In this document: piece after piece, positions 5,883 through 63,520 of the stretch
How positions within the stretch are numbered: the first letter of the stretch is position 1
Layout: every line of letters starts with the position of its first letter
Assembly: GCA_001972305.1 (NCBI GenBank)
Contig: BDDD01002852.1
Span: 124,001-188,000, forward strand
Reading direction: 5' to 3'
Length of the DNA stretch: 64,000 bases
Origin: Cephalotus follicularis
Lineage: Eukaryota > Streptophyta > Magnoliopsida > Oxalidales > Cephalotaceae
The notes under the pieces: generated by a model
What the model was told of the DNA's origin: nothing
What the model saw: the letters and a program-made list of their open reading frames with translations, nothing else
The model's database searches: none
Program-made: the position numbers and the translations under genes

Positions 5883-6046
5883 CAGTCGACTGTTTGAAGA
5901 ATCCAGTCGACTAACAATGGGTGGCAGTCGACTACACAACAGGGCCAGTCGACTACTCAACCAGGACTTGCAGACAGTCGACTGGATCAGGGGTCCAGTC
6001 GACCACTCAACTAGACAGTCGACTAGTTCATATGGGCAGTCGACTG
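5883..6046. repeat. 21-bp-phased AGTCGACT array in E1 LTR
   Basis: Eight copies of the palindromic motif (C)AGTCGACT(G) begin at 5884, 5905, 5926, 5947, 5976, 5997, 6017 and 6038. The steps are 21, 21, 21, 29, 21, 20 and 21 bp. The bases between the motifs are not conserved, so this is not a simple tandem duplication. Open frames through the array (for example around 5917-6162) give heptapeptide-like repeats and are not genes. Confidence 0.9.
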
Positions 6047-6838
6047 TTCTGGGTATCAGAACAGCAGTTCAGTGCAGTTTGTGCAATTTTAGCAACCAAG
6101 ACTTGGATTTTTTGACACTAGAAGGATACCAACATGTAAAACAACTTCATATGACATGTTAAACATTGTTACAACACAAAATTCGACATAAGCATGTTGA
6201 CAGAAAATTCTTTCAATGTGACAGAGACTTTAAACCATTGCATACTAAAATTTAATCCAATTATGTCCACTATCACCATTACATGCATCAAGCCAGATTG
6301 TATATCGATTCCTAGATGTCTACAGATGGCTGCTAACACAGAGTTACTTGACAGATGAACAAGGATGCCGAAACCATAATTAAGTTCATCTCTAGCAACC
6401 AAAGTTCATAGTTTTGATGACAATGATCCAAAAACAAATCGCTAAGGCATAACAATGTAGAAAACCAACCTGTTGGATGTCAAAAACGATTGCAGGAACA
6501 CCAAAACGAATGACACAATAGCTGATCAAAAACAAAAAGAAAGGAAGACATAAAAATTCAAGCCTGCCAACAATACCAATATTGCCAAGAACTATTCCTA
6601 AGTAGAAATCATGAAGAACTAACCTGTTTAATGAAGCAAGAACACAAAGAAGACAGTGACTCTTCCAATGGCAGGTTCGGCAGCAAGGAGATATGGCAGA
6701 AACGAAGGCTTGACATACATATATAGCAACGTAATCCAAAACGGAAAAGAAGAGGAAATTGGGGAAAGAATAAGGAAACAATAAAACAAAATCATATTGA
6801 TATGGAAGGAGGGGATTATTGCCGTGTAAAAATTATGA

Positions 6839-6910
6839 TGGAAGGAGAGAATTCGAGAGAGAGAGTTTGAGAGAGAGAGATGTCGTGAGAGGGAGAGGGA
6901 GAGTTTGAAA
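6839..6910. repeat. GA-rich low-complexity tract in E1 LTR
   Basis: The plus strand reads as runs of GAGAGA interrupted by TTT and ATGTCGT. As minus-strand CT repeats this would lie about 280-350 bp into the LTR, a position where plant LTRs and gene leaders often have CT-rich transcribed sequence. Confidence 0.75.
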
Positions 6911-7185
6911 GAAAAGGAAATAAAAAGGAAAAGGAAAAATAAAGAATAGGAAAGAAATAAATTAAAATGTGGTATTTTAAAAAGGTTTTTATTTATTTAT
7001 TTGATTAGTGGATTAATAATAATATTATACTAATTTACCAAAGCCCAAATTCCATACTAACAAACCCAAAATTAAGGCTGGTATCAATCAGCCCAAAAAC
7101 GTAAGCCCAACATAAAATGGACAAATACATAAACGAAACAAATAAAACCCGTAAGAAAATACGTACAGGTAAGCAGGGTATTACA

Positions 7186-7546
7186 TCCACCCCCCCTAAA
7201 AAGAAGATTTCATCCCGAAATCTAAACATACACATACCTTAAACGAACAAACGAGGGTATCATTCCCGAATGTGTTCCTCCATCTCCCAAGTAGCCTCAC
7301 GTTCGGGATGGTTCCTCCATAACACTTTCACAAATGGAACGGTCTTGCTACGCATAACCCACTCCTGTAGATCCAAAATAGCCTCCGCCTCCTCATCATA
7401 AGATAAATCCTCCCGAATGCTGTCCAAAGGATAATGGACCACGTGTAGGGGATGATACTGATAACCCCTCAACAAGGACACATGGAACACATCATGAACA
7501 TGAGATAACTGTGGAGGCCAAGCTAACCGATAAGCAACTGTGCCAA
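7186..7546 (-). mobile_element. pol: E0: 3' end of a second Tekay-type internal region, with chromodomain
   Basis: A polypurine tract (minus strand TTTAGGGGGGGTGGA, 7200-7186) abuts the LTR start. To its right, minus-strand coding reads VAYRLAWPPQLSHVHDVFHV, SLLRGYQYHPLHVV, DLSYDEEAEAILDLQEWVMR, then TVPFVKVLWRNHPEREATWE, a chromodomain at the C-terminus of integrase. In relatives this domain steers integration to heterochromatin. The segment stops at 7546, where it meets an LTR piece of the E2 family. The repeat of 7505-7546 at position 1 shows that E0 and E1 are the same family. Confidence 0.88.
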
Positions 7547-7999
7547 CCTTCTCTCTTTTCCTTCTCTCTCTCAAATGCACCTCTCCTCACTTTTCTCTTC
7601 TGTTTTTGCAGGTTGCAGGTCTGCAAATCTTGCAAAAGGAATAGTGGGCATGTAAGGCTCTCCCCTTGCATGTTATGGCAGGTGGTGACACGCATCCCTC
7701 ATGCATGCCACGATTAGCACACTTGTCATCCTTGTCTCTGCGCATGCCATATGCCTGTTCTGTACCATTCCAGTTGACTGTCACCCCACGCGTCAGACAG
7801 TCCACTGTTACCCTGTGACAGTCGGTTGTTTGAGCTGATTTTAGGGTTCCTTATGTTTGTTTTACCAATTTGTATTTCAACCAACCCAAGCATTCACTAA
7901 CCACAATTACTATGATAATTGGACATATAATATCAATTAAAATGTATACTTTATTTAAAATTGGAGCAACATACATTAATTGAAATTGCTTTTATTGTA
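7547..7999 (-). repeat. Inverted LTR fragment of the E2 family
   Basis: The reverse complement of this stretch aligns to the first about 450 bp of E2's 3' LTR (19346-19790). Shared landmarks are the LTR start (TACAATAA here, TGTAATAA there), TTCAATTAATGT, TAATTGGACAT, CCTGTGACA near a degenerate GTCGAC motif, and TTTTGCAGGTTGCAGGT. The LTR's outer end falls exactly at E2's primer site. The fragment is inverted relative to both E2's internal region and E2's 3' LTR. Confidence 0.85.
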
Positions 8000-9791: not shown

Positions 9792-11107
9792 TGTTCACTG
9801 TAAATGAATGTTTTAAAATTTATAGCCGCAAGTACACGGATCATGCAGTAACGGGTCAAACGCAGGAAAATGATAAACTAGTTGTAATCCATCCAACCTA
9901 GGCGAAGTATACCAAATTTGAAATAAACTATCAAAAACTACTCCTAATTATGCAAAATAAAATAAATAATCAAAACAGGAAATTAAGAGTTCGATAGTTA
10001 AAAACATTGAATTCAAAATACCAAGAAATAAAGCATGCAATTTTAAAACTAATCAAAACAATTAATAAAAGTGAAGAAAATATATAATCAAGAAACGGTT
10101 TTAGGGTATAGAAACTCACCGTAGATTGTATTGAACAATTCCATTTAATTTGAACGATCATACCTTGATAATCAGTGACAGCTAGGTCGATACGGAGTGC
10201 GACAGTGATGACAAGACGTATGAGTAGACATGCTAGGTATATATGAAGTACGGCAACGGCGGAAAGACATATGAGTAGACATGCTAGGTCTATACAAAGT
10301 GTGTTCGTTGTTGGCAAATCGTATGAGTAGACTCCATTGATTGAATTAAGCACCATTTATTCACCAACTTTCAGCTTCACCGACAAGATGTTTGTGGATT
10401 TTAATAAGACAGACAAAGTGTGTGTGAAGGCAGAAATATTGAAGAACAAATCAAATATTCAAGGACTTTTATTGATGGAATTGAAACAATAACAATCTAG
10501 GCTTTGTTCTAACCCCAAAACCTTGAAAAGTTTAGCTACTAAGCAATGTGAAACAAAACTAAATTGACAAAAGAAATTAGGGTTTCTACTAGCCTCTACA
10601 CACTTGATTTGGCCGACATTACATTGTTTTTATACTACAAAACTGATCAAAAACGGAAATAAAGCAATTTTAGTTACAAAATCTGGCAAAAAATCTATCT
10701 TTCTATTTCTGCTGCAGAAGAAGACGTCGATCCCTAACAAAAGATGTCAATGTCTTTTGGTAAAAATCGCGTTTTACCGAGATGCGCTTGAAAGACATCG
10801 ATCCCTAAGCAGAAAGATGTAGATCCCTTTTGGTCCAAAAGTTACAGGTCGAATTTGCACAAAGACGTCGATCCCTTTGATGAAAGGCGTCAATCCCTTT
10901 CTCATAGCGCTTGAAGGTAAGTTGCAACTATAGACACACACACATATACGCAAGAACATCAATTCCTTGTCCTCCTCTTCCATAAAATCTTATGAAACTT
11001 TGAAAACACACAAGATCGGTCTTTTTATTCATTTATCATTTTAATTTTCGCACAAAACTCCTACTTTGAGATGCATTCCTTCCTTTTTCCTTGAACTTCG
11101 GTCTACA
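9792..11107 (-). repeat. E4 left (3') LTR region
   Basis: It begins at the TG beside the target duplication. The portion 10431-10925 matches 15607-16110 of the right LTR closely. The stretch 10926-11107, up to the polypurine tract, has no clear counterpart in the right LTR, so the inner boundary is uncertain. The left part (9792-10430) is AT-rich with no coding signal. Confidence 0.7.
10721..10900. repeat. GACGTCGATCCC-type array in E4 left LTR
   Basis: Degenerate copies of (A)GACGTCGATCCCTT have their core C at about 10725, 10745, 10796, 10818, 10866 and 10888, with a GGTCGA at 10847. Steps are about 20, 51, 22, 29, 19 and 22 bp. The pattern is the same as in the right LTR (15899-16195), where the copies are better preserved. 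Confidence 0.8.
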
Positions 11108-15606: not shown

Positions 15607-16405
15607 GGCAGAAATATTGAAGAACAAATCAAATATTCAAGGATTTTTATTGATGGAATTGAAACAATAACAATCTAGGCTTTGTTCTAACCCCAAAACC
15701 TTGAAAAGTTTAGCTACTAAACATTGTGAAATAAAACTAAATTGATAAAAGAAATTAGGGTTTCTACTAGCCTCTACACACTTGATTTGGCCGGCATTAC
15801 ATTGTTTTTATACTACAAAACTGATCAAAAACGAAAATAAAGCAATTCTAGTTACAAAATCTGGTAAAAAATCTATCTTTCTATTTCTGCTGCAGAAGAA
15901 GACGTCGATCCCTAACAAAAGACGTCGATGTCTTTTGGTAAAAATCGCGTTTTGCCGAGATGCGCTTGAAAGACATCGATCCCTAAGCAGAAAGACGTCG
16001 ATCCCTTTTGGTCCAAAAGTTACAGGTCGAATTTGCACAAAGACGTCGATCCCTTTGATGAAAGGCGTCGATCCCTTTCTCATAGCTCTTGAAGGTAAGT
16101 TGTAATTCCCAGAGAAGACATCGATCCTTAGCCAAAGACGTCGACACGTTTATTGTAAACCCAGAAAAGTCGTCGATCCGTATGATAGACATCGACGCTT
16201 TTTGCTCTGTTTCTGCCGAATTTTGTCAATTCTTCAATCTTCACTCTTTCAAGCTCTAATTTGCACAATTTTTTGTGGTATTCTTGCACTTTGGTCATTT
16301 AGCTCTTGTACCTAAAAATCAACATAACACGACCAAAGTAGTCTATTCCAAGCATAAAAATATCACAAATAACTCATTAAAAATAACATATTTTTATGCT
16401 AATCA
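15607..16405 (-). repeat. E4 right (5') LTR region
   Basis: On the minus strand it starts TGATTAGCATAAAAATATG at 16405, directly beside the GTACG duplication. The part 15607-16110 matches 10431-10925 of the left LTR with few differences by eye. The array at 15899-16195 lies inside it. Confidence 0.82.
15899..16195. repeat. GACGTCGATCCC-type array in E4 right LTR
   Basis: Cores begin at about 15903, 15923, 15974, 15996, 16025 (GGTCGA), 16044, 16066, 16119, 16139, 16171 and 16190. The steps are 20, 51, 22, 29, 19, 22, 53, 20, 32 and 19 bp. Most copies read GACGTCGATCCC or GACATCGATCC. The step classes of about 21, 29 and 50 bp recur in the Tekay and SIRE LTRs. Confidence 0.85.
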
Positions 16406-19344: not shown

Positions 19345-19517
19345 ATGTAATAACCGCAAATTTCAATTAATGTGTATTGTACACAATGATGAATAAAATA
19401 TGCAATATATTGAGATATAATGTCCAATTACTATATAAATTGGGGTTGTTGAATTGTTGGATTTGATTGGAAATGCAAATGTGGTGAAACACATTTAACA
19501 AACCAAAACCAGTCTCA

Positions 19518-19580
19518 AACAGCTGACTGCCTTGATTCAAAGTGTGACAGTCGAATGTCACAGGGCAACAGTCGACTGGT
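19518..19580. repeat. Short GTCGAC motif group in E2 LTR
   Basis: AGCTGACT at 19520, AGTCGAAT at 19548 and AGTCGACT at 19569 are spaced 28 and 21 bp. The corresponding motifs in the inverted fragment are at 7772, 7799 and 7820 (27 and 21 bp). Confidence 0.75.
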
Positions 19581-20507
19581 CTGGCACATACAAGTGTTTG
19601 TGCATGGCATGTAAAAACACAGTAGTGGCAGCCTAAACGTGTCTTGCATGATAGATGCGTGCCACCAGGCGTACAATATGCAAGAGTAGGTCTTGCATGT
19701 GCTCTGCTCCATCTGAGAACCTGCAACCTGCAAAACAGAAGTTGGAAGAAGAAAAGAGAAAGAAACATGCATGTGATAGAGAGAAATAGGAAAAAACTGA
19801 AAATTTGAGTTAATGAATGAAACGAGAATTGGAATACAATTTCCTTTATAACAGAGGCTGCATGAGTGATTAGAGAGTTAGAAACACTGAGAAAGAGCGG
19901 AATCTTATTGATGATTGTGGACCTTGCGTGTTGGAGCTTGCATGTTGAAGTTGGGAGGTTCTAAGAGTGATTAAATATTTGGTTTTCTGGGTAAGCTCTC
20001 AATTCTTGTTATTGTTGAAGTTATAGTCACTGATTTCGGCCTACATGGCTACTGTCCATACGTCTATAGCTTTTAATTCTGGAATTAGAGATGGAATTGT
20101 AAATTGTTAAAGGAAGAGTTGAAGCTTAGAAATTTCTGATAAGCTACTGATTAGATTATAGTTGTTATCATCATTTTGATAAACAAATAACTTACTGGTT
20201 TTAATGTATATGCATAACTTACTAGTTTTAATGTATATGCATGTAAACATGGAATTGTATAGATTAACTTGCTGAAATTGGAAAGTTTGTGTGAAGTTGG
20301 GACTTGGAACTCAAAGAGAGAAATCAACTCAATTTGATTTCGGGATAGCATTTGAGGTACGGGTTTTGACATGTTTTGGAGGATATGATATGTATATCTT
20401 GCATGGATGATTTTTGTACGATTACATGTTGTTAATTGGTTGAAATTGGATTGTGACATGCATACCATGTTTTTATTAAACTACTGCTTGACGGTTTTGG
20501 ACAAAAA

Positions 20508-20602
20508 CAGTCGACTGTTTAATCCCAACAGTCGACTTCTCAATGTAAACAGTCGATTGTTAAGGACAAACAGTCCACTGCCTAATGAAAACAGTCTGCT
20601 AT
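20508..20602. repeat. 21-bp-phased AGTCGACT array in E2 LTR
   Basis: The motifs start at 20509 (AGTCGACT), 20530 (AGTCGACT), 20551 (AGTCGATT), 20572 (AGTCCACT) and 20593 (AGTCTGCT). Every step is exactly 21 bp although the intervening bases differ. Confidence 0.9.
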
Positions 20603-21221
20603 TCTTATTAACTGCTTACAGTTAAGTGACAAATTACTGATATTAGTTGCTGTTAGGCTGTAAATTGTGTGTAATTACCCTGGCCTCCACATGGGATGAT
20701 TGTAACAGTCAAGCCTGACCTTAGGTAGTTATATTACAGGAAGTAATCAACGTATGCACTCCTTGTGTGAGTTGTGCAAGAATGACTAGGGTATGCTAAC
20801 ATCTTGTTGAATCCTTGAATTGTGATTGTTCCGCTACTGTTAATGATGCTATTATACATAATGTATAGCTATTAAGTGTTCAGAAATACTATTGTTACAC
20901 TTAATATTAATGATTGAACCAACTAGTGCTATAAGCACAAATATGAGTTTTTCTTACTGTTTCCAAAATGAAAAATTATTGTCAAATGATTTACTAATTT
21001 TCCTCCCATGAGAGGCACAACTACTGTATTGAGTATTGTTCCCCCAAAAGAGAGGATGGTCACTGAACTGAAAAAATGTTTCTAAGGAAAACAACTATTA
21101 TATTGCATATTATGGATATATGTAATATTGCTATTGAATTGATTGAATTGTTTGTCTATGTTATTGCCATTAGTCGAGTGATAGGAGACATCACTGGCTA
21201 CTGGGTGGTCCTATGTGCTAG

Positions 21222-21226
21222 GAGTT
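21222..21226. repeat. Target-site duplication GAGTT, left copy (E5)
   Basis: GAGTT at 21222-21226 recurs at 39136-39140, directly outside E5's TG and CA ends. Joined across the insertion, the flanks read GCTAGGAGTTGGCTAGAG, which resembles GCCAGGAGTTGGCTGGGT in the E3 LTR (23960-23980); this confirms the site lies inside an LTR. Confidence 0.92.
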
Positions 21227-22418
21227 TGTGACGCCCCGTCACATTTACGAGGCTAATTTGCAAAACACGTGAGCGTGAAAAACACGCGAGTAGAATATTA
21301 GTATTATTAATATTATATGTAAAAAAAAAAGGGAAGTCTGGCGCGTCTAGAAGGCGCTAGATGCACCAGACTAATTAAAAGAAGTGGGCAAAGCGCCCGT
21401 GTGACATAGAGAGGGAGAGAGTTGAGACAGAGAGATGAGCGCGAGAGGGATGGAGAGACGCCGGAGAAGAGACGCCGGGAAGCGCGAGGCACCGGGAAGA
21501 GCGGCGTGGGTCTTCCTTCAGCCGCCGGTAAGCCTCCTTCCTCCTCTTTTTTCTTCTTTCTCTTCCTTTCTTCTTCGTCTGCCGACACTGCCGGCTCTCC
21601 TCCGCCGCCGTTTTGAACGCGGGTTGGGCCGGTCATGGCCTAGAAGACCACCTCCTTCCATTTCAGTGGTGGTTGAGGCGTGATTCGGCCAGAGGTGACG
21701 GTTGAGACAACTGAAAGAGTTGACTCACTGTCGGCTCTGCCGCCACTTTGGGATGCGATTCCCTGCGAGTCTCGGTCACCAAAGCGTAGACCGGACTTTG
21801 TGGAGGCCAGGGGTGGTGAGACCGGAGCAATGGCGTCTCGGCCGGAGCTATGGCGCGGCGACAGCCGTCGATTCTCGGCGAGTTATGGGTGGAGACGCGT
21901 AGTACATGCCTCGTGGAAAACTTTTTGTGAAGTGACCATAATTGTTGGATGACCGGCGAGTTGACTCGGTGAGTCAAACTCACTGCCGGCGGTGGCTGCT
22001 CATTTTTGGGTGAGTCACAGTGAGTTTTGATCAATAATGTGAGTTGATCAGTTGTTTTAGGGGTTGTTTTGGGTGTCGTCGGAACTTTGGCAGGTTGACC
22101 GGAAATTGGCCAAAGCTCCGGTGACTAATAGTGTTAATTGCATATGTGTAGGAAGTAACGAATATGTATTGTTTATGCAGTGTGACGGTTGATAGAGTTT
22201 CGAAACGATGATGGGAATCCGATAGCCGATTCAAAGCTTCGAGGGGTTAGTTCGTGGAAGTATCGGCTCTGATATTGTGAGTAGAACATCTCCTTCCTTT
22301 ATCTTATTGATTTTGAAATTCGTTGTTTGATTTTATCATACGATATGGCTTGTTATATGATTCCATAATGATTTCTTGGAATCCTTTATTGACATTCTCG
22401 ATTGAACTCTAATAGGAC
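21227..22418 (+). repeat. E5 left LTR, part before E3
   Basis: It aligns with 35360-36549 of the right LTR. The GC-rich, GA-rich stretch 21400-21960 has overlapping open frames on several frames and both strands, in both LTR copies; this looks like leader sequence and not a gene. A donor-like GCCG|GTAAGC occurs near 21529 (GCAAGC in the right LTR, near 35661). Confidence 0.9.
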
Positions 22419-22562
22419 TGTAACGCCCGAGATTTTCATTTAAGTGTAATATTGCTTTTCCTATGTAATTTTACACCTTGTGTTAATGAGAATCGTGTTT
22501 TCCCTCTTTCCCGTGTTGAAATGTTGCTTGAAAGTGTGATGTTGTGTGTTTTTGGTGCAGGG

Positions 22563-22715
22563 GCAGCCGACTGCCACAGGGAGGCAGCCGACTGGACCCT
22601 TGTCGAAGCGTGGCAGCCAGCTGCCAGGAGGAGGCAGCCAGCTGGTGGGAGTGTCGGCAGAAACAGCCGACTGCCAGGCAAGGCACTCGACTGCCATGCG
22701 CCAGACAGCCCACGT
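22563..22715. repeat. AGCCGACT array 1 in E3 LTR
   Basis: Motifs start at 22565, 22586, 22615, 22636, 22665, 22685 and 22707. The steps alternate: 21, 29, 21, 29, 20, 22 bp. Most read CAGCCGACTGCC or CAGCCAGCTG. The 3' LTR remnant carries the same group at about 29620-29770. Confidence 0.85.
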
Positions 22716-23218
22716 GCTGCCTGCCTTAAGTGACAAAAGGGAGAGTATTTTGGATTTATTGCAAATGGCAGAGGAGGGGCCGGGGCTTTCTCCTTAAAAC
22801 ACAGCCTTTCCCTCTTCTTTCTCCATCATTCTCTGTGTTGTCAAGAGATTTCTTAAGAGTTTGAGAGTGAAAGTGTGTGTCTGTTGAGGCTACGGAGCTC
22901 GTGTGTTGGAACCGTGAAGCTTGGAGGCTTGGCAGTGGGAGTCCGGACCAGTGGAGGTTGCTGGACGTGTTGGGGTTGCAAGAGCTTCAGATTTTGACAT
23001 AAAGAGGTGGATTGCAACTCCTAACTTGGAGTTCTAAGGTAGGGGGAAGTCGTTTTTGCAACGTAATTTCAATTGAAAATGTTTTGATGAAATAAAATGT
23101 ATGTTTATGTTGTATTGTGAGCTTGGAACCTGTATGTGCATAAATATGTCATTTTGGGTTGTGTTGGGTGTGTGATTGTGGCTGTTTTAGCAGCTGGTTT
23201 TTACACCTGCTGCAGAAT

Positions 23219-23530
23219 CCAGCCGACTGCCCACCTTGGGCAGTCGACTGCCTATGAGTCCAGCCGACTGTTCTAGGGAGGATAGTCGACTGCCCGTGTT
23301 TGTTTCCAGAAAATGTATGCAGTGGTTGTGTATTCGACTGTTGTGGGTCCACAGCCGACTGTGGGGGTGTGGACAGCCGACTGTCCTGAGGGCCAGCCGA
23401 CTGTAGAGGGTGGGCAGCTGACTGCCTGTGTTGACAGCCGACTGCCTGGTTGTGTAGCCGACTGCCTGGGAGTGGCAGCCGACTACTTTGGGGGGGACAG
23501 CCGACTGCCAGTGGGAGGCAGCCGACTGTT
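23219..23530. repeat. 21-bp-phased AGYCGACT array 2 in E3 LTR
   Basis: Motif starts are 23221, 23242, 23262, 23284, 23332, 23353, 23375, 23395, 23416, 23436, 23456, 23477, 23499 and 23520. Steps are 21, 20, 22, 48, then 21, 22, 20, 21, 20, 20, 21, 22, 21 bp. This is the longest array of this kind in the window. Spacers vary and are G/T-rich. Confidence 0.92.
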
Positions 23531-24183
23531 GGGGGCCTGTATTACCCGTGAACATTGTGTATTGTGGTGTTTTGCTTCGTAAAGCTTTATAAACTATTTA
23601 AGGTGTTGTGGTTATTGAGATTGAACTGTTATAACATAATTTTGGAAGTGCATTGTAGTATAATGAAAAATCATTACTTTACACGAAATTATATGTTTTG
23701 ATAAATATATACTTTAGAACCGTGAAAATGGCTTCCAAAAACAACGTGAACTGAGTTTTGTGATATGGAGAACCGTGACATCGTGAAAATGAGTTGTTTT
23801 CAGGTATTTTGTTTTATAAACTACTTGGAAAACAGTTTTAAGCATCTAGATGATTGTGATTGAGCTTGACTGTGATTGCTGTTTGTGATTGTGATTGTGG
23901 ACGTACTAGTTGCATGGCGGAGATGCCAGCGATGGCTAGTGGCCGGGTCGACTCAGGGGCCAGGAGTTGGCTGGGTGACTCACTGCATTGTGACCTGCTT
24001 CGTGCCGTCCGGAGTCGGGGCCGATGACAGGATGTACGACATTGGGGCCAGGAGTTGGCGACACTCTTCGTACCCATCGTGAACCGTGTATTGTGTAGTC
24101 CTGTGGACTTGTTGGAGACCGTGTACAGTGATATTGTGACATCGTGATTGCTGTGATATCGTGACATCGTGTTTGGCATATGC

Positions 24184-24185
24184 AT

Positions 24186-24232
<47 letters not shown>

Positions 24233-24234
24233 CA
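24184..24234. repeat. (CA)n(TA)n microsatellite in E3 LTR
   Basis: A CA run of about 25 bases passes into a TA run of about 22 bases. A comparable CA/TA tract lies at 46299-46366 in a related LTR, at a similar position before the LTR end, so it is probably an ancestral feature of these LTRs. Confidence 0.92.
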
Positions 24235-24732
24235 CATGCATTGAGATATAGTATGTACTGCATCATGCTGCTTTCATACTTTGGTTTTATTGATATTGTT
24301 TTACTTTTATGACTTTGGCCGAGTGAGGACAAAGGCTAACCCCCTACTGTTGCAGATTGATGCTGCGTTTTGGATATCGCCGGGCATGGCCGTATCGGAC
24401 GGTGAAGTGATTGGAGTTTCTGCTTTAAGTGTTTTGTTAAGCAGTGTAGCGAACATGTTGTTCTTTGGTTTATGTACTAATGTTTTGCTATTGTTGTTGT
24501 ATCAACTTTGGATCATGCTCTGTTTGTGGGCTTTTTAACATGTTATGATAAGGATGTTGTGGGATTCATGCGGTATGGGACGCATGGTTCCATTTGTTTT
24601 CAGCTTATATATAAATGCTTCCGCAAGATGATGTCTGTTTAAAAGTTTAAATTTTATCGTTCTCTGTATAAGCTGGATATCTGTTAAATTTCCATGTTGT
24701 ATGTTGTTAATGCAAGCGGGGTGTGACAGCAG

Positions 24733-24744
24733 TGGTATCAAAGC
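24733..24744 (+). other. E3 primer-binding site
   Basis: TGGTATCAAAGC lies four bases after the LTR end and matches the initiator-Met-tRNA type site with one difference from TGGTATCAGAGC. Confidence 0.85.
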
Positions 24745-24835
24745 ATATATCCATTTATATGCTTATCTCGGATACTATCCTTGGCAATTAACATGTTTCC
24801 TCGAGAGAACTAATGACATCTTTTTATAGGAACCT

Positions 24836-25799
24836 ATGGACGGTCGAAGGAGACGCGCAAGGCATAGGGCCGTGAACGAGGATGTTCCTGAGGAAGTGAA
24901 TGTGGGCGGAGGTCACAATGCTCCACCGGAGGCAGTGTCGAATGTGAGAGACCCCATGGACCGCATCGCTGACTATATCCAGCAGATAGCTGGCAATCAG
25001 CAACAGATGGCCGCTAATGCCGCAAATATGGAGGAGATGCGGAGGATGTATGCTCAGGCTCAGCCGATGGCTCCAGCTCAGGATGCGTATGATGATGGTA
25101 GCCGGTTTGGCAGAAACCTAGAGAGGTTTATGAGACAGAACCCACCCAGTTTCAAGGGAGAGTTGCATGCTACAGCCGCTGAGAGGTGGTTACAGAACCT
25201 TGAGAAGATTTTCGAGGTGATGGAGTGTTCTGATAGGCAGAAATTGAGGTTTGCCATGTACCGTTTGTGGGGAGAGGCCACTTACTGGTGGGAGATGGTC
25301 AGTGCTAAATGGGAAGATACTGGAGTTGTAGGCACATGGGAGGGGTTCTAGGAGGAGTTTTTTGCAGTGTATGTGCCACGCATTGAGCGTGAGCGGAGAG
25401 AGACGGAGTTCTTGGAGCTACGTCAGGGAGATATGACTGTGGCCGAGTACCAGGCCAGGTTTGTTGAGCTCGCCAGACATTCAGCCTACTTGGTTGCTGA
25501 TGAGGAGAAGAAGGTCCGGAGGTACTTGAGGGGCTTGCGACCGGATCTTCGGTCTCGGATCAGGGTGATGGAGCTTGGTACCTTTGTGGAGGTTACCCAG
25601 AAAGCAAGGTTGTTGGAAAGTGTGTTGAATGAGGACAGGGCCGAGAGGGCCCGAGCACAACAGAGCAGGCAGACACAGAGTCAGTCTAGACCAGCATCAT
25701 CAAAGTGGCAAGGCAGTGGTTCCCCGACGAAGTCCTCGAGGAACAGGAATCTGCAGACAGCTTCACAGGGTGCTCCTAGTCAGGGGAGTGATGCTAGGA
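24836..25799 (+). pseudogene. gag: E3 Gag capsid-like part
   Basis: MDGRRRRARHRAVNEDVPEE starts the region, about 90 bp after the primer site. ERWLQNLEKIFEVMECSDRQ, FAMYRLWGEATYWWEMVSAK and MTVAEYQARFVELARHSAYL are Gag-core landmarks shared with E2 and E1. A Q/S-rich linker follows. Confidence 0.9.
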
Positions 25800-25925
25800 C
25801 TGGGGTTTGTTACCACTGTGGTCGCGCAGGTCATCAGCAGAAAGACTGTTGGGCAAAGAAAGGGTTGTGTTTAAGGTGTGGCATAGCGGGGCATTCTGTG
25901 AGGGATTGCCCGAGAAGAACAGAGA
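25800..25925 (+). pseudogene. gag: E3 Gag double zinc knuckle
   Basis: CYHCGRAGHQQKDC and CLRCGIAGHSVRDC are two canonical CX2CX4HX4C knuckles separated by a WAKKG linker. This is the RNA-binding nucleocapsid region of Gag. Confidence 0.93.
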
Positions 25926-26436
25926 CAGCGCCAACTGGGCCAGCTGGCGGTAGTGCTTCCGCAGCAGGACCGTCACAGCGGAGAGACACCAGCAAGGGCA
26001 TAGTGAAAGGTAGAGTTTTCGTTCTCACTCAGACAGAGGTTCCAGAGTCTACTTCTGTTGTGGGAGGTACTGTATATGTTTATGGTTTCTCTGCTAGAGC
26101 TTTGATGGATTCAGGAGCGTCACATTCTTTCATTGTTTCCCATTTTGCATCATGTTTGGATGTGTCCCCTGTTTGTATGCCTTTTATTCTCGATGTGAGC
26201 ACACCTTCTGGAAGTTCTATGTGTGCAGACTCGGTGTACCGAGGTTGCGAGCTTTCTGTTGCAGGTGTTTTGTTGTGTGCAGACTTGATCGTGTTACCCC
26301 TTTGTGACTTTGATTTTATTTTGGGTATGGACTGGTTGTCAGCCTACCGTGCACAGCTGGACTGTTACAACAAGGTGGTGGATCTTTGCTTGCCTGATGG
26401 GACTACTTTTAGTTCCAGGGAGACAGAGGCTTCTCA
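25926..26436 (+). pseudogene. pol: E3 protease region
   Basis: KGIVKGRVFVLTQTEVPEST leads to ARALMDSGASHSFIVSHF, the aspartic protease motif, and DFDFILGMDWLSAYRAQLDC. It is colinear with E2's protease. Confidence 0.9.
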
Positions 26437-27300: not shown

Positions 27301-27303
27301 GAG

Positions 27304-27918: not shown

Positions 27919-28092
27919 TGGAAGTTGTTGGAGGACTTCCAGGAATGGTCTCCATTCAACCAGTCACCAGGGATCTTTCTAGACAACATGCGGGTAGAGC
28001 CTGTGTTGCTGCATCACATCAAAGATGCACAACCACATGATCCGGAGTTGTAACGGATTCGAGAGAATCTGGATTCGGAGTCTGATTTTAAA

Positions 28093-28371
28093 GTGCATGA
28101 TGATGGTATTATGAGATATCGGGGACGTGTGTGTCTTCCGAATGAACCAGGGTTAAAGAGTAGGTTACTTCACGGGGCCCATAAATCTACATACAGTATT
28201 CATCCTGGTAGCACCAGGATGTATCAAGACATGAAGAAGTGTTACTGGTGGCCTGGCATGAAGCGGGAGATCGCTGAGTATGTGGCAAGGTGTTTGACTT
28301 GCCAGACAGTTAAGGCCAAGCATCAGAGGCCAGCAGGGTTGTTACAGCCCCTACCAATTCCAGAGTGGTAG
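28093..28371 (+). pseudogene. pol: E3 integrase zinc-binding N-terminus
   Basis: HPGSTRMYQDMKKCYWWPGM and [20 protein letters not shown] form the HHCC domain, followed by LLQPLPIPEW, the entry to the core. Confidence 0.92.
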
Positions 28372-28380
28372 TGGGAGCAT

Positions 28381-29160: not shown

Positions 29161-29170
29161 ACTGTCAAGT

Positions 29171-31055: not shown

Positions 31056-31589
31056 TGTTATGTTTACCATAGGCACTCTGCACCAGTGTATGATGGATGA
31101 TGATCACATCCTGTAGCCTATTGGCCTATATTATTGCTGCAACGGTTGTATTATGACGCCATGTGATTTGGTGGTGATATGATATGATGCCATTTGATTT
31201 TCCGGCAGAACAAATTGTGTTGCCATGTGATATGACGACAGATATGAGGCAGTGATTGATTGGTACCAGCATCCTCCTATATTTTATGACTCTATGGGCA
31301 CATACTTTGATTTATTATCCATGATTATGTCTTTGATTCTTGATATTCATGTATACTGATATTATTGTGATTCTATCGTATTTGTAGAGCATTGACTTGA
31401 TCATTGAGATTTGTCTTATGGATTCTTATGTTACTGTATCGTTGAGTATTGATATGTTCTTGATATCCTTGTGGATCGTCCTATCTTTTATGGATCTTGT
31501 TCAAATTCTTGACTTATGTTTATAGTTATGGAGCCCACTGCTGAGCATCGAGTTTCCTTTTATGGATTCGATTATATTTGTGGATTCCG

Positions 31590-31790
31590 TTATGAGATCT
31601 TGATATCGTTTATGAATCTTAATATCGTTTATGGATCTTGATTTCCTTTATGAATATTGATGTTCACTTTTCTAGATCTTGTTTACATTTGTAATTCTCA
31701 TTTACATCGTAGATTTCATTTATATTGTGGATTTCGTTTACACTTCGAGAATCTCGATATCCCTTTGTGATCTCGATATCTCTTTTTAAT
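31590..31790 (+). repeat. 19-bp periodic GATCTTGATATCG tract, E5 left LTR
   Basis: Degenerate units of GGATCTTGATATCGTTTAT recur with ATCT positions at about 31597, 31616, 31635, 31654, 31676, 31751 and 31770, mostly 19 bp apart. The right LTR has the same tract around 38200-38400. Confidence 0.7.
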
Positions 31791-42840: not shown

Positions 42841-45828
42841 TGACACGACCTGACCCCCTAGGCTGTAACCCCACCAGACGAGCCATGCCATACTATACTT
42901 AACCTTAATACTTCCTAACTTATACCATATCCTTGACCTCTATTCTATAACCAACTCTGCATACCAAATAATGTGTTTTACAGAAAACAGGGTGCTAAGC
43001 GTCGAGGTCTGCCTTATCTCCCCCAAGCTCTGCCTAAGTTTCTATATTCCAAGGCTGACCTCTACCCCTGAAGTCTTCCGTCGAGCTTGAGCTCTGATCT
43101 CTACCTCTTGACTCTGCTTTCGAGGTTTGCCTTCAAGGCACCGAGGTCTGACTCTGAGTTTTGATCTCTAACCTCTTTCTCCGAGGTCTACTCGGGCATT
43201 CGAACCTCTGCCTTCCATTGTCTGAGCTCTGCCTTCCATAGTCCGAGCTCTGCCTTATCATTTTGAGCTCTTTCTTCAACTATTCGTGCTCTGACTTAAC
43301 ATAACATTGAAACAGTTGCTAAAATATGCAGTTCAAACCACAATATATATATATCCACACTCCCGAAGGAGAAATCAGCAGTTAATTTACTTCAATCCAT
43401 CATAAGGATACCACAATCAATTTAAGATACTCTATTTCAACATATTATACATCCAGAACCATTATTACTCCAAATATATCTGTATCCCATAATAATTCAA
43501 GTTATCAAACATGAACATAATAACAATTCCCGTATGTCCCCATGCATGCATATGTTACTGGCCAACTCTGCCAATGTAAGGTGCCTGTACTTCCGTGGTC
43601 TACTTTTAGTAAACTCAAATGCTACTGGACTGGTGGATCAAGTGGATCATCCTCTGTTGCCTCAACTGAAAAATGTAAATAAGAAGGGGTTAGTCCAAAT
43701 GACTAAGCGAGTTGGGACAAATCATTTTCTGATACATCCATCAAGAATTGGAAGTGTTGAATAAAATAGTATGCCATGATCACAAATATCGGTATATCAA
43801 ATAAAGTGGAATAAATCTATGAACATCATATAAATCAACAAGACTTCATAAAAAGAAGCTCGCAACTCAACGAAATAAGGATCCGGTGAATAATCTTAAG
43901 CACAAAATGGTACTCCAAGAATACAATAGAACCACAATAAAATTCGAGTGTTTGAAATATCAAGAATCATTGTATAATCAACATTCATGAATCAAATGAT
44001 ATGCCCATAAAATAATTATAACCAGGGATGCTGGTACAAATAAAACCTCATCATCTCATATCAGCCCATCACAGGCCTCAACGTAGGACCCCACCCTCGA
44101 CCGAGTGACCTACTTGTCACCACACGCACCCCACCCTCGTTTGAGGGGCCTACGTACCAAATCAACTCAATACAATCACATTTCATGTCATGAGCTCATC
44201 ATATCTCATACCATCATCATATATCATCATCCTCATGCACCTGTGAAGAGTAGCCACATAGGCAAAGTAAATCATCATAGTAGCCACACAGGCTGTATAT
44301 CATCTCAATCTCATCAGATAAGCAAATATAGTCCGATTAGTGAGTAACAGAGCCCGGCTGCACTCACACTCAGCATACAATCATAGACCAACGGTATACT
44401 ACAGATCCAGGCTGCGGAAGCCTGTGGCAGTCCCCCATAACATCCCGTCATAGACCAATGGAACTGCTAAGGAGAGTTGGGCATCGAACGTACACCTCAC
44501 CCTCGACCGAGATCACATGTGACATGTCACAAGGTACCAACATCAGAGTAGAAAGTACGATATCATAATCATGATGATCCATAAAATCGGAAGGTGACCT
44601 AGTCACCCAGAGCCCGGGCCTCATATGCTCGTAAATCACATCACAGTCATAGAATAAGATCAACATAATACATGTGAGATTCAAATCCTGATCGAATCAT
44701 CACATAACACAAGTACAACAGGGCACATATCAAATAAGAGTCTCAAGATAGTAGAAGGAAGGCAATGAACCACTCACAGATTTACCGAAAGCAACTAACG
44801 CGGACTAATCCTTGAACGCTCAGGATCAGCTACTGTATCCAAGTCTTGAAAGCCATCACATTACAGATTCAATAAGCATATTTCCTATGCTTATACGAGA
44901 ATATAGTGGATATATATGCCATACAAAGGCCATATTCCCATGTTACCCTTTGATGCTATATAGCATTACCACTAACTTAGAATTCAATACTTTACTCTTT
45001 CTAATACCTCCACCATTACTAATTACTATCCAAACACAACACTATATCATAATTTACGTTAGACAACCTCAATAGCCCATGATTTCACACAAAGCCGAAA
45101 TCCTTCTAACCTTAGCAAGATTAAATGGCTTCAATCCTTAATTCAATATCAACTTTCCTTAAACCCCCAAGAAACTGAATCTTGTAAGCATCAAAGTGAT
45201 GATCTCATAAGTTTACTAACATCCACTTATCATTCTTTAAAACCATAGAACTATCAACTTTACCACTCCTTAATGGAACCGAGTTTTAAAGGAATAATCA
45301 TGGAATTCAATTTATGATAATATGCTCAACTCTTAGTCTAATTACCACCACTCATGAAGATATAATTCATCACTTCACAATCAATCATATGGCATCAACA
45401 TCTTGATAAAACCTCAACTTCTATAGCCAGGAGGTTAGAGAACTTACAAGATTATGTTAGAAGGATGAAAGATGAGTCACTTTTATACTTGTTTCCTTAA
45501 AAAGTTTTTAGAGAAATGGAGAAGAAAATGAGAGCTTGCATGAGGTGAATGCTTCGGCCATGCAAGAAAATCAGACTACCGTTTGTTTTCTCTTTATAAA
45601 ACGTATAACTTCTTTTAAAGATGATTAGTATAGAAACTTTGAGATAAATAGAGAAAAGTCAAGACAATTCGGGACTTATGGAGGTCATTGGGCCGAATTT
45701 TTGATCCTTAAAAATACTTAAATCCTTTTTTTTATACATGACTTTATCATAGGGTAAGCCAATCCACTCCAGAGAAAACATACAATCCTACCTGCTTCCT
45801 AGTCGACTCCCAGACATGCTTAACATAC
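42841..45828 (-). repeat. LTR fragment related to E5, minus strand
   Basis: The reverse complement of 44090-44520 matches the E5 LTR around 30600-30830 (GTACGTTCGATG, CAACTCTCCTTAG, ATTGGTCTATGA, CTGAGTGTGAGTG, TCGGTCGAGG). On the minus strand it ends GTCAGGTCGTGTCA at 42841, inside the copia integrase fragment, so it inserted there. The acceptor-like block is clear at 43693-43666 (minus strand CTAACCCC ... TTTTTCAG). No coding sequence is seen in these 3 kb. Confidence 0.8.
43003..43296. repeat. GAGCTCTGCC array with about 21-bp steps
   Basis: Variants of CGAGGTCTGCC / CGAGCTCTGCC occur through this stretch. The clearest run has motif starts at 43183, 43202, 43224, 43245, 43265 and 43286 (19, 22, 21, 20, 21 bp), and the first two at 43004 and 43025 are 21 bp apart. 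The core GAGCTC is a palindrome, different from the GTCGAC core elsewhere. Confidence 0.75.
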
Positions 45829-46367: not shown

Positions 46368-47341
46368 CCTACGTCCACTTTTCCCAAGGATCTCCTTGAG
46401 TTTCCACTAGTCTCCAAATAAAATTTCGGGTGCTATTCGGTGCACCTTTTACACTTGTTCATGATTGACCTCAATCACTTACAAATTTTGGGTTCACTCC
46501 CCTACGGTTCACTCGCCTATTACAATCAAATTGTATAATGAAGAATGTTTGATCTTAACCTCTCAAAGGTTGGATTTTGCAAGATAATAACTCTCAAAAT
46601 AAGTGGGACCAAAAATAGGCTTAGGCACAAAACAAGAACTTTTGAAAGAGACTTGATGATGTTGAATGCTTCTTTTTGATTTTTCTTGATTGATCTTTGT
46701 ATGTATATTCTCTTGTATTCTTGTTGTGTTCTCTCTTCAAATCTTTTTGTTTATAGTCGTTTTGCACTTGAAAAATCAGTTGGATATGTCTTGGGGCTTG
46801 TTGCTTCAAAGACAGCGCATTAAAATTCTGTCAGAAAATTTTCCAACTGTGCAAAGCGTCGATCGTTTGCCTCAAAGCGTCGCCGCTTATATGACCGTTG
46901 GGCATTTGAATTTGAATTGTCTGGTTAAAGTGCTAGCGTTCTGGATTTGGGGTCGACTGTTTCATCAAAGCGCTGACGCTTCGTGTTGAGCGTCGCTGCT
47001 TTGGGAAATTTTAATTAGCCCAAAATTCTCTGGTTTTAACCGCTGATATTGGCCCCCTAAGCGTTGACGCTTAGCCTCAAAGCACTGACGCTTGTCACAA
47101 AGCATCGATGGTTTGGCCATTTTCTCCTTCACCCAAAGGCTCCAATCTGTTGGCGCTTTGTTCCTTACTTCGACGCTTGTACAGAGCACTGACGCTTACT
47201 TTCTGAGCGTCGACGCTTTAAGCTGCTTTTTGCAATTTTTTTTGCTGTTTTGCACATTCTATCTTTTACTTGCACATAAAAAGCTTTGTCAAACACAAAT
47301 ATATTATCATCAAAACTAGGATTGAGACATGAATGTCAACA
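46368..47341 (-). repeat. S1 3' LTR
   Basis: On the minus strand it starts TGTTGACATTCATGTCTC at 47341. It shares the start with S2's LTRs and shares 46368-46630 with S1's 5' LTR (54779-55026). GTCGAC-type motifs run from 46857 to about 47215 (for example AGCGTCGATCG with core at 46857 and AGCGTCGCCGCTT at 46878, 21 bp apart). Confidence 0.88.
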
Positions 47342-55149: not shown

Positions 55150-55510
55150 AAACCGTCGACGCTTAGGAATAAAGCGTCAGCGCTTTGAGCAACTATCGAG
55201 ACAAGGAAGAAAGCATCTACCGGTGAAGTGTTTGGAGAAGTGGAAGAAATGGCCAAACCATCGATGCCCAGATTCAAGCATCTGCACTTTGACACAAAGC
55301 GTTTGCGCTTTGACACCTTTGACACAAAGCGTCTGCCGATTAAACCAGCGAGCCCAATCAGAATTCAATTTGGCCTAAGCGTCGATGCCCAGACTTAAGC
55401 GTCACCGCTTTGAGCTGCCAGTCGACCCTTGAACACAGAACGCCTGCACTTTGACTCGATAATTTGAAATTGAGATACCTAACGGTCACATAAGCGTCGA
55501 CGCTTTGCAC
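55150..55510. repeat. AGCGTCGACGCTT-type array in S2 5' LTR
   Basis: Copies of AAGCGTCGACGCTT, AGCGTCAGCGCTT and degenerate forms are spread upstream of the TATA box. The best member is a 14-bp perfect palindrome. The arrangement equals the better-measured array in the 3' LTR (63145-63520). Confidence 0.85.
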
Positions 55511-58939: not shown

Positions 58940-58950
58940 TTGAAGAATCA

Positions 58951-61024: not shown

Positions 61025-61143
61025 TTTGCCAAGCCTTTTTACACAGAAACTCAAACCCTAACTTCTAAACACACTATCTCCGACGATTTTTTTTGGCGAA
61101 AAACTCTCAAAAAACACAGATTCACCTTCATCAAACTTCAATC

Positions 61144-62396
61144 ATGCCAAGAACTAAGAACTTTGAGGCTGGACAAGGATCAAAGAAGAAGAAGAAGTCA
61201 CTGGGGCGCAAGGGCAAGGGTATTGATACTCAACCAACCACTTCTAAGGTTACTCATTCTCTCCCTAGGTACCCAGAGGCTTACTTTAATAGGAAGATAC
61301 TTGTAGGGAAGGTTTTAGATTTTGATTTCTGTAATAGTGAAGGGTTTCCTATTGTTGAGTGGCTTAGGGTTCAAGGGTTGGAACCCTTATTTTCTATAAA
61401 CTTACCTAGCTATCCTGAGCTCATTAAGGAGTTCTATGTGCATATTCTGAGTAGCTCTATGGATAGTATGAGTACTAAGGTCAAAAACAAACCGATTGAG
61501 TTGACTTTAGATAGACTAGCCACTATTTTGAATGTTCCGAATGGTGGTGCGTGGGGTTGGAACCAACGGTCTTGGGTGGCTAGCCCAAATTTTGATCAAC
61601 AGGACTGTGTGCGAGTTCTCTTTGGTGAGAATGCTGATCATGTCCAGCGTATGTACACTAGGAATCTAAGTTTACACTATCGATTCCTACATCGTGCGGT
61701 ATGTATGCACATTTTACCTAAAGCTAAGTGGGTTCGATGAGGTAACCCACATGGAGGCCTACACAATGTACCACTTGATCACTGGAAGAAAAATAAATGT
61801 GCCCTTCCTGATTATCAATCACATGAATGCGATTCACGACCGAGAGAATGCAAGACTGGGTTATAGCAACATCATAACCAAGATCCTTCACTACTTCGAT
61901 GTTGACCTCAGTGGAGAAGTAAACCACCCTCTCCAAAGTGTTGACAAGCTAGGGAAAGGAACCCTTAGGAGAATGGGCTTCAAAAAGCACAAAAGGCTCG
62001 GTACGTGGATTCCAAGGTAAGAGGACTCCAATCGAGTCATTAAAGAGGAAGGAGAAGCTGAGATGGGAGAGGAAGCACAGAATTTACCAATAGAAGCTCC
62101 AGTTGAACAAACTTCGGATGTCAATCATCCGAGGAGCAGGCTAGATGAGATTTTTGATGCAATCAAGGGACTCCAATAGAATGTTGAGGAGATGAAAATG
62201 AATATGCAATTGATGAAATGACGACAAAAAAGAATGGCCAAGAAATTCGCTGAAACGGGCATTATAGAATATGAAGGTCTTATCTCTTCATCCTTGAGCC
62301 ACGACAATGACAACATTCCCCCCTGATGATGCAGCAACCGACGACTTGGAGGGAGAGGTCGGTGGTGATGACGAGGACACCCATATGGATGACTAG
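61144..62396 (+). pseudogene. S2 extra 3' ORF, plant-transposon-protein-like
   Basis: The ATG at 61144 (MPRTKNFEAGQGSKKKKKSL) is chosen because S1 has the same start context; an upstream in-frame ATG at 61093 exists. After a basic N-terminus come SLPRYPEAYFNRKILVGKVL, LEPLFSINLPSYPELIKEFY, IELTLDRLATILNVP, RNLSLHYRFLHRAVCMHILP and EAYTMYHLITGRKINVPFLI, LGYSNIITKILHYFDVDLSG. The C-terminus is acidic (GDDEDTHMDD). This resembles PF20167-type proteins, whose function is unknown. It has no visible membrane segment, so it does not look like an envelope protein. It is broken. Confidence 0.78.
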
Positions 62397-63003
62397 GCAT
62401 ATGCATTTCATTTTCTTTGCATTTTATGTTGATTTCTGCTATGGATGACTTTGTCCTTTGTAGCGTGTTCAATTGGAAGTACTATTGTGTAATGTCAAAT
62501 GACAATGTTGTGTTTTGATTTCAATGTGCATTGGTTTAAATGTTATGGATTTGGAATGCTTGGATCTGTAGTTTGTAATTTGCAGCTTGTACTATTGGAA
62601 GTGCTACTTGTTATGTAACAAGACTATGTATCGTTTTGATTTCAATGTGCAATGCAAATGTTATGACTTTTGGAATGTTTCCCTTTAATGAATTCTATGT
62701 TATTAAAATTGGAACCTGGAATGTATGCTCAAATGACATTATTTATGGTTTTTGAATATAGCGTCTTAAATCCTTTTTTGAATTGATAACAAAAAGGGGG
62801 AGATTTGTGGGAGATAGCATAATAATGCATAAAAATGACAAGGAAATAACCCCTTGTGTGACTAAGGGGGAGGTAATAAATTCAGGGGGAGCAAATGTAT
62901 TTTTGCATCACTTAAGTTCTTAAAGCTTTACATTTGTGCATTTTTGTTAATGTCTTAACTCAACGATTATTATGCTTAAAATGAAACAATTTTTTTCATC
63001 ATC
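62397..63003 (+). other. S2 3' untranslated region
   Basis: An AT-rich stretch with a partial internal duplication: AATTGGAAGTACTATTGTGT and the later TATTGGAAGTGCTACTTGTT are each followed by GTTTTGATTTCAATGTGCA (62511 and 62633). No coding is seen. Confidence 0.7.
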
Positions 63004-63017
63004 AAAAAAGGGGAGAT
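63004..63017 (+). other. S2 polypurine tract
   Basis: AAAAAAGGGGAGAT directly precedes the LTR start TGTTGAC. Confidence 0.9.
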
Positions 63018-63144
63018 TGTTGACATTTATGTCTCAATCCTAAGTTTTGATGATAACATATTTGTGTTTAACTAAGTTTCTTGATGTGCAAGAAAACCTT
63101 GGAATGCGCAAAACAGCACAAGAATTATGCAGAAACAGGGAAAC

Positions 63145-63520
63145 CGTCGACGCTTAGGAATAAAGCGTCAGCGGTTTGAGCAACTGTCGAGACAAGGAAC
63201 AGAGCATCTACCGGTGAAGTGTTTGGAGAAGAGGAAGAAATGGCCAAACCGCCGATGCCCAAATTCAAGCGTCTACGCTTTGACAGAAAGCGTCTACACT
63301 TTGACAGAAAGCGTCAGCGCTTTTATACAAAGCGTCTGCCGATTAAACCAGTGAGCCCAATTGGAATTCAATTTGGCCTAAGCGTCGACGCCCAGACTTA
63401 ACCGTCAGCGCTTTGAGCTGCCGGTCGACCCTTGAACACAGAACGCCTGCACTTTGACTCGATAATTTGAAATTGAGATACCTAACGGTCACATAAGCGT
63501 CGACGCTTCGAAGGTGACAG
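63145..63520. repeat. AGCGTCGACGCTT-type array in S2 3' LTR
   Basis: Core positions are about 63145, 63166, 63185, 63205, 63252, 63270, 63291, 63312, 63333, 63383, 63403, 63423, 63444, 63497 and 63516. Steps are 21, 19, 20, 47, 18, 21, 21, 21, 50, 20, 20, 21, 53 and 19 bp. Copies include the palindromic AGCGTCGACGCTT and AGCGTCAGCGCTT. Confidence 0.9.

Follow-up and report, generated by a model that had tools for sequence, protein, structure and literature searches.

Short boxes at a pitch near 21 bp in the long terminal repeats of three retrotransposon lineages of Cephalotus follicularis

What do rows of short, dyad-symmetric boxes, repeated about every 21 bp, do in the long terminal repeats (LTRs) of plant retrotransposons, and how did they arise? 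The question is raised by a window of 64,000 nt from Cephalotus follicularis (assembly GCA_001972305.1, contig BDDD01002852.1, positions 124,001 to 188,000 of the forward strand), a nest of plant LTR retrotransposons in which a sequence-only reading had noticed such arrays in elements here called E1 to E4, S1 and S2. The arrays are real, are more regular than chance and occur in three lineages, namely chromovirus-like elements (E1 to E3), a separate Ty3 lineage (E4) and Sireviruses (S1 and S2). The boxes, their pitch, their position, the lineage of the elements, the conservation of Sirevirus boxes over their spacers and one change of array length by a whole unit can be observed directly in the window. 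As to their meaning, we regard it as just about probable that the arrays are cis-regulatory and that their boxes bind transcription factors of the host; they would have grown by duplication of whole units and been kept by selection on the boxes.

Box arrays and the elements that carry them

In the chromovirus-like elements, eight boxes of the CAGTCGACTG type lie at 5883..6046 (minus strand) within the E1 LTR (4484..7185, minus strand; 2.7 kb, TGTAATACCC...TGTTACA), which was delimited by reading the sequence, with a polypurine tract (PPT) above it, a primer binding site (PBS) below it and a reverse transcriptase (RT) match. Seven of these boxes are exact copies of AGTCGACT and one is AGTCGACC; their steps in element orientation are 21,20,21,29,21,21,21, which is the earlier series 21,21,21,29,21,20,21 read from the other end, and six of the seven fall at 20-22 bp (p=0.00005). 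The E2 3' LTR (19349..21227, plus strand), preceded by a PPT and interrupted by element B at about 21228, holds two plus-strand arrays: three boxes at 19520..19578 with steps of 28 and 21, a group that by itself is not significant (p=0.20), and five boxes at 20508..20601 in exact 21-bp steps, as previously described, with an invariant left half CAGTC and the final two boxes degenerate (CAGTCCACTG, CAGTCTGCTA). An old, inverted LTR fragment of the E2 type (7556..7996, minus strand) contains three decayed boxes with steps of 21 and 27. The E3 5' LTR (22419..24727, plus strand), with the PBS TGGTATCAAAGC after it, also has two plus-strand arrays, both noted earlier: six boxes at 22564..22693 (steps 21,29,21,29,20) and fourteen, mostly CAGCCGACTG, at 23220..23528, where 12 of the 13 steps (21,20,22,48,21,22,20,21,20,20,21,22,21) are of 20-22 bp. 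This larger array lies inside the 5' LTR, as the PBS after 24727 and the truncation of the 3' LTR at 30042 show; its assignment to a leader sequence was ruled out on the same truncation.

The 5' LTR of E4 carries nine boxes GGATCGACGTC, mostly in doublets, at 15901..16200 (minus strand), 89 bp before TATAAAAA and with a further weak box near 16188. Their steps in element orientation are 32,20,53,22,48,22,51,20, where values near 20-22, 29-32 and 51-53 were first reported, and in the truncated 3' LTR a copy of the array was found with five boxes (10723..10896, minus strand). Among the Sireviruses, S1 has six boxes AAGCGTCNNCGCTT in its 5' LTR (55151..55505, plus strand) and eight in its 3' LTR (63142..63508, plus strand; steps 21,104,21,21,71,20,95), where a half box follows to 63531 and TATAAATA stands at 63625, and S2 has six in its 3' LTR (46875..47218, minus strand; steps 21,104,21,91,93). 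The Sirevirus boxes had thus been correctly seen, but their steps, given as mostly 18-21 and 47-53, are instead 20-21 bp within groups and 71-104 bp between them. Two arrays had been overlooked: eleven boxes near GGCAGAGCTC at 43004..43295 (minus strand; steps 21,20,21,21,60,21,26,39,32,21, six of the ten at 20-22 bp), hereafter the 43-kb array, and boxes near TTTATGGATC in an LTR repeat of element B at 31415..31678 (plus strand; steps 53,19,38,34,18,32,19,19,22). In these counts Sirevirus boxes have at most two mismatches and one E2 box with three mismatches is included; omitted are Sirevirus boxes above that limit, the weak box of E4 near 16188 and, in E2, an isolated box at position 1823 of the LTR.

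Pooled over six LTRs, 36 of 51 box-to-box steps measure 20-22 bp (a set from which the E4 3' LTR, the S1 5' LTR, the old fragment of the E2 type, the 43-kb array and that of element B are excluded), against a mean of 4.5 and a maximum of 15 in 20,000 random placements within the same spans. A motif-free count of near-matching 8-mers (7 of 8) at each lag from 9 to 119, over the LTR stretches as marked in this analysis, peaks at lags 21 (39), 20 (36), 41 (31) and 19 (29), the mean being 15.3 and the standard deviation 5.6; outside the LTRs lag 21 gives 30 for a mean of 17.7, and the top value is 33, at lags 25 and 87. When the window is scanned for clusters, again with no motif given, the arrays of E3, E1, E4 and the Sireviruses rank at the top along with the 43-kb and element B arrays, the top clustered 8-mers reaching 9-13 per 320 bp as compared with 6-8 in five Markov-resampled windows. 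The claim of a pitch of about 21 bp, with dyad-symmetric cores and with arrays in both Ty1 and Ty3 elements, is therefore borne out.

The number of lineages is smaller than the five unrelated ones first proposed. RVT_1 domains were matched in E1, E2 and E3, whose RTs are 59-68% identical to one another, and the RT of E4 is 35-42% identical to theirs; judged by these sequences, E1 to E3 are one clade and E4 is a separate Ty3 lineage, which with the Sireviruses S1 and S2 makes three lineages in total. The name chromovirus-like is used because the two Chromo matches, one next to the E1 LTR (7263-7586) and one in E3, each with E about 5e-5, are just under the Pfam cutoff, and because E2 gave an SH3_Tf2-1 match only, with no Chromo match found in the Pfam domain search. 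The label Athila for E4 is that of the sequence-only reading and is here taken as an assumption, a separate Ty3 lineage being all that is established; a PBS pattern of Athila was looked for in E4 and was not found. In S1 and S2 the RVT_2 domain (Ty1/copia RT) was matched, with Retrotran_gag_2 in S1, and both show a published signature of Sireviruses, several AGGGGGAG PPT octamers with a terminal copy about 10 bp before the 3' LTR: two upstream AGGGGGAG copies and a terminal AAAAAGGGGGAGATTG in S2, and upstream AGGGGGAG copies with a terminal AAAAAAGGGGAGATTG, one G fewer, in S1. Two other published signatures, a polyC-rich signal close to the 3' end of the LTR and an ATTGG preceding the PBS, are present in S2 on its 5' LTR side (AACCCCCCCCCCC...TTCAATTGGTATGAGAG); neither was seen in S1, where the LTR copies stop short of this point.

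The elements are nested in one another: E4 (minus strand) sits between two coding parts of E2, E3 (element A) lies within the 5' LTR of element B, and S1 (plus strand) is located in the LTR region of S2 (minus strand). Some further features of the nest were recorded. The E1 LTR is common to two element parts, with an integrase end, its weak Chromo match and the PPT on one side and the PBS and gag-pol on the other, as in a tandem or recombined element. One deletion seems to have taken the end of the element A 3' LTR and about 223 bp of the B LTR (22419-30042 and 36552-36774), and the B LTRs contain a 61-62-bp tandem repeat (30811-31050 and 37542-37659) that includes ATCGACGTC, a 9-mer also present in the E4 box. 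Downstream of the S1 pol, at 61069-62017, there are matches below the Pfam cutoff to Transposase_32 (putative plant transposon protein), in the position that an env-like gene may occupy in Sireviruses. Positions 7505-7553 are 96% identical to 1-49, and 39159-39828 and 41705-42375 are direct repeats, 82% identical and ending near GGTGTGACA, perhaps the LTRs of a small decayed element.

Conserved boxes, promoter context and candidate binders

Evidence for selection on the boxes, good but not perfect, comes from the comparison of S1 with S2, in which box columns are identical at 83 of 98 positions (85%) and the other array columns at 154 of 260 (59%; p=3e-6), the remainder of the aligned LTR giving 162 of 215; the boxes were picked on S1 alone, seven of the eight being used as one is without a counterpart, and the alignment itself may favour boxes. 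Within the chromovirus-like clade, the E2 and E3 LTRs show no alignment past about the first 28 bp in a self-comparison of the window (at least 45 bp, E at most 1e-4), yet their box groups are similarly placed, at LTR positions 146-275 in E3, 172-230 in E2 and 169-226 in the old E2-type fragment, with a second group at 800-1255 in E2 and E3 and the E1 group at 1140-1303. Within this clade the boxes thus last longer than the sequence around them. Conservation is moreover one-sided: the right half CTG is kept in 8/8 boxes and the left half CAG in 3/8 in E1, the left half in 8/8 and the right in 4/8 in E2, and the two halves in 19 and 16 of 20, a weak asymmetry, in E3, which points to protein sites.

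What the lineages share is less than one motif. The boxes read CAGTCGACTG or CAGCCGACTG in E1 to E3, AAAGGGATCGACGTCTTT in E4 and AAGCGTCNNCGCTT in the Sireviruses, and the core common to them is RYCGAC at most; the Sirevirus box keeps AAGCGTC..CGCTT around a centre that varies (GA, AG, TA, AA, AC) and does not keep that of RYCGAC. A single motif for all lineages, as first supposed, was ruled out: the boxes differ in the Sireviruses, and those of element B and of the 43-kb array are unrelated. That one array block was transferred between Ty1 and Ty3 elements, which had also been suggested, appears extremely improbable: the named arrays do have a TCGA-like core in many boxes together with the 21-bp pitch, but the boxes are unlike beyond that core, and no match was found between LTRs of different lineages (self-comparison, 4-24.5 kb against the window), nor any alignable flank or spacer, and even within one clade the E2 and E3 LTRs do not align past about 28 bp.

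The position of the arrays recalls a known system. The repeated motifs (RM boxes) of Sirevirus LTRs are palindromic boxes upstream of TATA, with the TATA box on average 37 bp after the box-rich island (Bousios et al., 2010; PMC2829016, here and below for the parts covered); the earlier opinion that no such system had been described is thus wrong for Sireviruses. S1 and S2 boxes are of this kind, being numerous, dyad-symmetric, upstream of a TATA-like site, CpG-rich and kept while their flanks diverge. The RM criterion asks for eight or more palindromic boxes ahead of the TATA box; the S1 3' LTR has 8, the S1 5' LTR 6 and S2 6 at the mismatch limit given above. By contrast, the box AAGCGTCNNCGCTT is absent from Table 3 of that article and is without a CGG-CCG core, as is the published Tnd-1 box (PMC2829016), and similar arrays are present here in Ty3 elements too. 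No description of box pitch was seen in the covered parts of PMC2829016. Of the 12 arrays examined in our set, which include those of two related loci described below (L003 and L005), 6 have a TATA-like site no more than 105 bp downstream: strict TATAWAW lies 89 bp after the E4 array, 97 bp after S1 and 15 bp after L005, and the looser TATAA 104 bp after S2, 60 bp after the larger E3 array and 67 bp after the 43-kb array, as measured from array ends set in this analysis and with the final half box included in S1 and S2. The arrays followed by TATA match the published Sirevirus layout, and the arrays in general are therefore read as multimerised sites for host factors.

As to which factor, the RYCGAC core is concentrated in the arrays, the ten listed ones holding 72 of the 135 sites of the window, or 28 per kb as compared with 1.0 (27 times denser inside), in a count over both strands in which each GTCGAC counts twice. 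Among E1 to E4 it occurs in 34/45 boxes (8/8 in E1, 4/8 in E2, 15/20 in E3 and 7/9 in E4). The PLACE entries CBFHV RYCGAC, the site of barley HvCBF1, and CRTDREHVCBF2 GTCGAC (PMC6628100, as far as covered) correspond to it, and as the commonest core of E1 to E4 equals the listed HvCBF1 site, the foremost candidate binder of these arrays is an AP2 factor of the DREB/CBF type. The resemblance to the C-repeat/dehydration-responsive element (CRT/DRE) sites of CBF/DREB extends to the core of most boxes in E1, E3 and E4 and to that of half of the boxes in E2 (PMC6628100, same limit), although the putative sites are here placed within a dyad-like box of 10-18 bp and repeated up to 14 times per array. 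The match was looked up once the boxes were already known and is for this reason a lead and not a test.

A mechanism that would account for these data is the following. The boxes of an array would be bound by a sequence-specific DNA-binding protein of the host, probably a transcriptional activator, to which the array would offer its site many times over, and boxes about two DNA turns apart would place the bound proteins on one face, where they might cooperate. Arrays would lengthen as whole units are gained and shorten as they are lost, and they would be retained because transcription of the element depends on the boxes rather than on the spacers. Every lineage has a box of its own, putatively read by a DREB/CBF-type factor in the chromovirus-like elements and E4, and in the Sireviruses representing an unlisted version of the known repeated motif. 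Protein binding, cooperativity, the identity of the factor and an effect of the arrays on transcription are here predictions from sequence. A stronger version, in which the three deeply separate LTR lineages converged independently on one regulator of the host (for instance DREB/CBF, as a binder of RYCGAC) and on arrays of its sites, the two-turn pitch being under selection and whole classes of retrotransposons thus responding cooperatively to one host signal, is considered improbable.

The pitch as possible heritage, and other possible roles for the boxes

Several observations weigh against the reading of the arrays as selected binding sites. The three lineages are few independent cases. When the named arrays are removed, the LTR count at lag 21 drops to 12, which is no excess, and lags 19 and 20 remain at 27 and 25. 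Twelve of the 15 steps outside 20-22 bp (the three of S2 being left out as homologous to those of S1) show no fit to the helical repeat (p=0.19). Half of the 12 arrays (E1, both of E2, the smaller of E3, element B and L003) have no TATA-like site within 170 bp downstream, and the TATA distances of the others are given without a chance control in LTRs that are AT-rich. The enrichment of RYCGAC is post hoc, the boxes having first been spotted by their TCGA core, and the motif has no site in the 43-kb array and is not kept in the variable centre of the Sirevirus boxes. Finally, in a neutral simulation of tandem duplication, which supposes an old duplication and frozen boxes, 0.05-0.1 indels per substitution often yield the observed pitch (P 0.04-0.80 for E1, 0.07-0.61 for the five-box E2 array and 0.003-0.54 for the larger E3 array).

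The last point bears on a simpler origin, in which the arrays are ordinary minisatellites, slippage in reverse transcription or in replication having duplicated a unit of about 21 bp, so that the spacing is heritage and is not selected. Tandem repeats of 19-22 bp are indeed found by Tandem Repeats Finder in several arrays, and a comparison of the S1 LTRs with each other shows a 21-bp indel, which has the length of one whole unit, and a 12-bp indel that is not a unit. The spacers of 20-22-bp steps are more alike than shuffled ones in five of six LTRs at p<0.05 (E1, p=0.038; E2, E3, E4 and S1) and not in S2 (p=0.23), a likeness due partly to boxes whose edges extend into them. This explanation gains somewhat from the simulation and from the lag count made once the named arrays were removed. 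On the other side, boxes persist while spacers change, and the boxes, at least, are therefore selected or homogenised; irregular steps of 28-32 and 48-53 bp recur across E1 to E4; and at 0.2 indels per substitution the pitch of the larger E3 array becomes rare (P at most 0.026), that of E1 and of the five-box E2 array being still possible (P 0.005-0.22). Taken together, we judge a minisatellite origin rather unlikely.

These results also leave unproven the earlier proposition that phase matters. Evidence for selection on the pitch is absent, unlike that for the boxes: the steps other than 21 bp do not follow the helical repeat, the spacers of most LTRs retain a likeness, and neutral duplication often reproduces the spacing. 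Pooled pair distances do cluster near multiples of about 10.3 bp, but helical phasing of all distances is not claimed, because pairs within runs of 21 bp are not independent and the non-21 steps gave the result above.

The symmetry of the boxes may also be considered at the level of RNA. Neighbouring palindromes could pair as hairpins in the transcript and so feed small-RNA silencing by the host or serve the RNA of the element, as the folding of several arrays would allow, which is strong in E1 (z-score -6.6) and the five-box E2 array (-5.6) and fair in S1 (-4.1), S2 (-3.5), L003 (-3.1) and the larger E3 array (-2.5). All eight E1 boxes retain every dyad pair when G-U is allowed, and palindrome clusters of maize Sireviruses are reported as small-RNA hotspots (PMC5311732, PMC10760457, in the parts covered). 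The folding excess is, however, weak or missing in E4 (-1.8), the 43-kb array (-1.5), the three-box E2 array (-1.4) and the smaller E3 array (-1.1); dyad pair 4-7 is broken in 14 of the 20 E3 boxes, as in their consensus; and strong folding is partly a by-product of repeated palindromes, so that an RNA role as the main explanation seems quite improbable.

Boxes could likewise gather symmetric CG or CHG sites into islands of methylation and act as an epigenetic switch instead of as sites for one factor. CG observed/expected ratios are higher in the array than in the rest of the LTR in E4 (1.62 vs 0.39), S1 (1.29 vs 0.55) and S2 (1.20 vs 0.37), and in E1 to E3 the CHG ratio is 1.76-2.51 in the arrays vs 1.10-1.24 elsewhere in the LTR. 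Since the context differs by lineage, CG in E4 and the Sireviruses and CHG in E1 to E3 (where the CG ratio of the arrays is below 0.7), and since the boxes alone could produce such enrichment, this explanation is regarded as very improbable. Both RNA folding and methylation may act alongside protein binding.

Related arrays and known systems

Relatives were sought in other sequence records. No relative was found in IMG/VR scans, and a scan of GTDB with the alignment of the chromovirus-like RT gave 13 loci (L001 to L013) in prokaryote records, which are probably contamination by plant or other eukaryote DNA. The RTs of L001 to L007 are 59-71% identical to that of the chromovirus-like elements of the window. 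In L003 seven boxes near the near-palindrome CTTACGCAAG stand in steps of 44,19,18,19,19,18, about 430 bp before the PBS, and in L005 a 51-bp repeat consists of 19/32 doublets, the last of them 15 bp before a TATA box. L005 (Geminicoccus harenae CPCC 101083) and L006 (Solirubrobacter sp. CPCC 204708) have 5.76 kb in common at 99.3%, which suggests one contaminant in two records, and L006 stops short of the L005 array. Of the other loci, L002 has a 63-bp repeat (28+35), L007 and L009 contain repeat pairs, maybe LTRs, without such arrays, L006, L010, L011, L012 and L013 show clusters with other spacings, and the array searches gave nothing clear in L001, L004 and L008. Box arrays of short pitch are thus present in no fewer than two further related LTRs (L003 and L005), where the boxes have different sequences; these loci, few in number, support the occurrence of such arrays elsewhere and not the universality of 21 bp.

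Besides the Sirevirus repeated motifs, the palindrome clusters of maize Sireviruses are comparable in being grouped in the cis-region of the LTR and in their strong RNA folding, but their motif is CACCGGACNNNGTCCGGTG and they come with small-RNA data, where the present arrays are known from sequence (Bousios et al., 2016, as described in PMC5311732 and PMC10760457, same parts). With other families cited in PMC10760457, in the portion covered, the likeness is one of general principle, that of repeated, sometimes palindromic, cis-regulatory repeats. A literature search noticed no report of 21-bp box arrays in Ty3 LTRs, mainly among titles and abstract openings and with subscription papers mostly outside its coverage. 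Because the Sirevirus lineage is already known for such boxes, the arrays described here look like a wider form of a known regulatory device, one that crosses lineages, and not like a new system.

The repeated motif has been described as Sirevirus-specific and as missing from classic Ty1/copia elements (PMC2829016, in the parts covered), and arrays in Ty3 elements would extend beyond Ty1/copia a feature reported as specific to Sireviruses within that superfamily. Should such arrays, with their two-turn pitch, prove general in the LTRs of plants, they would predict testable host factors and would allow the activation of elements that form much of many plant genomes to be approached from sequence.

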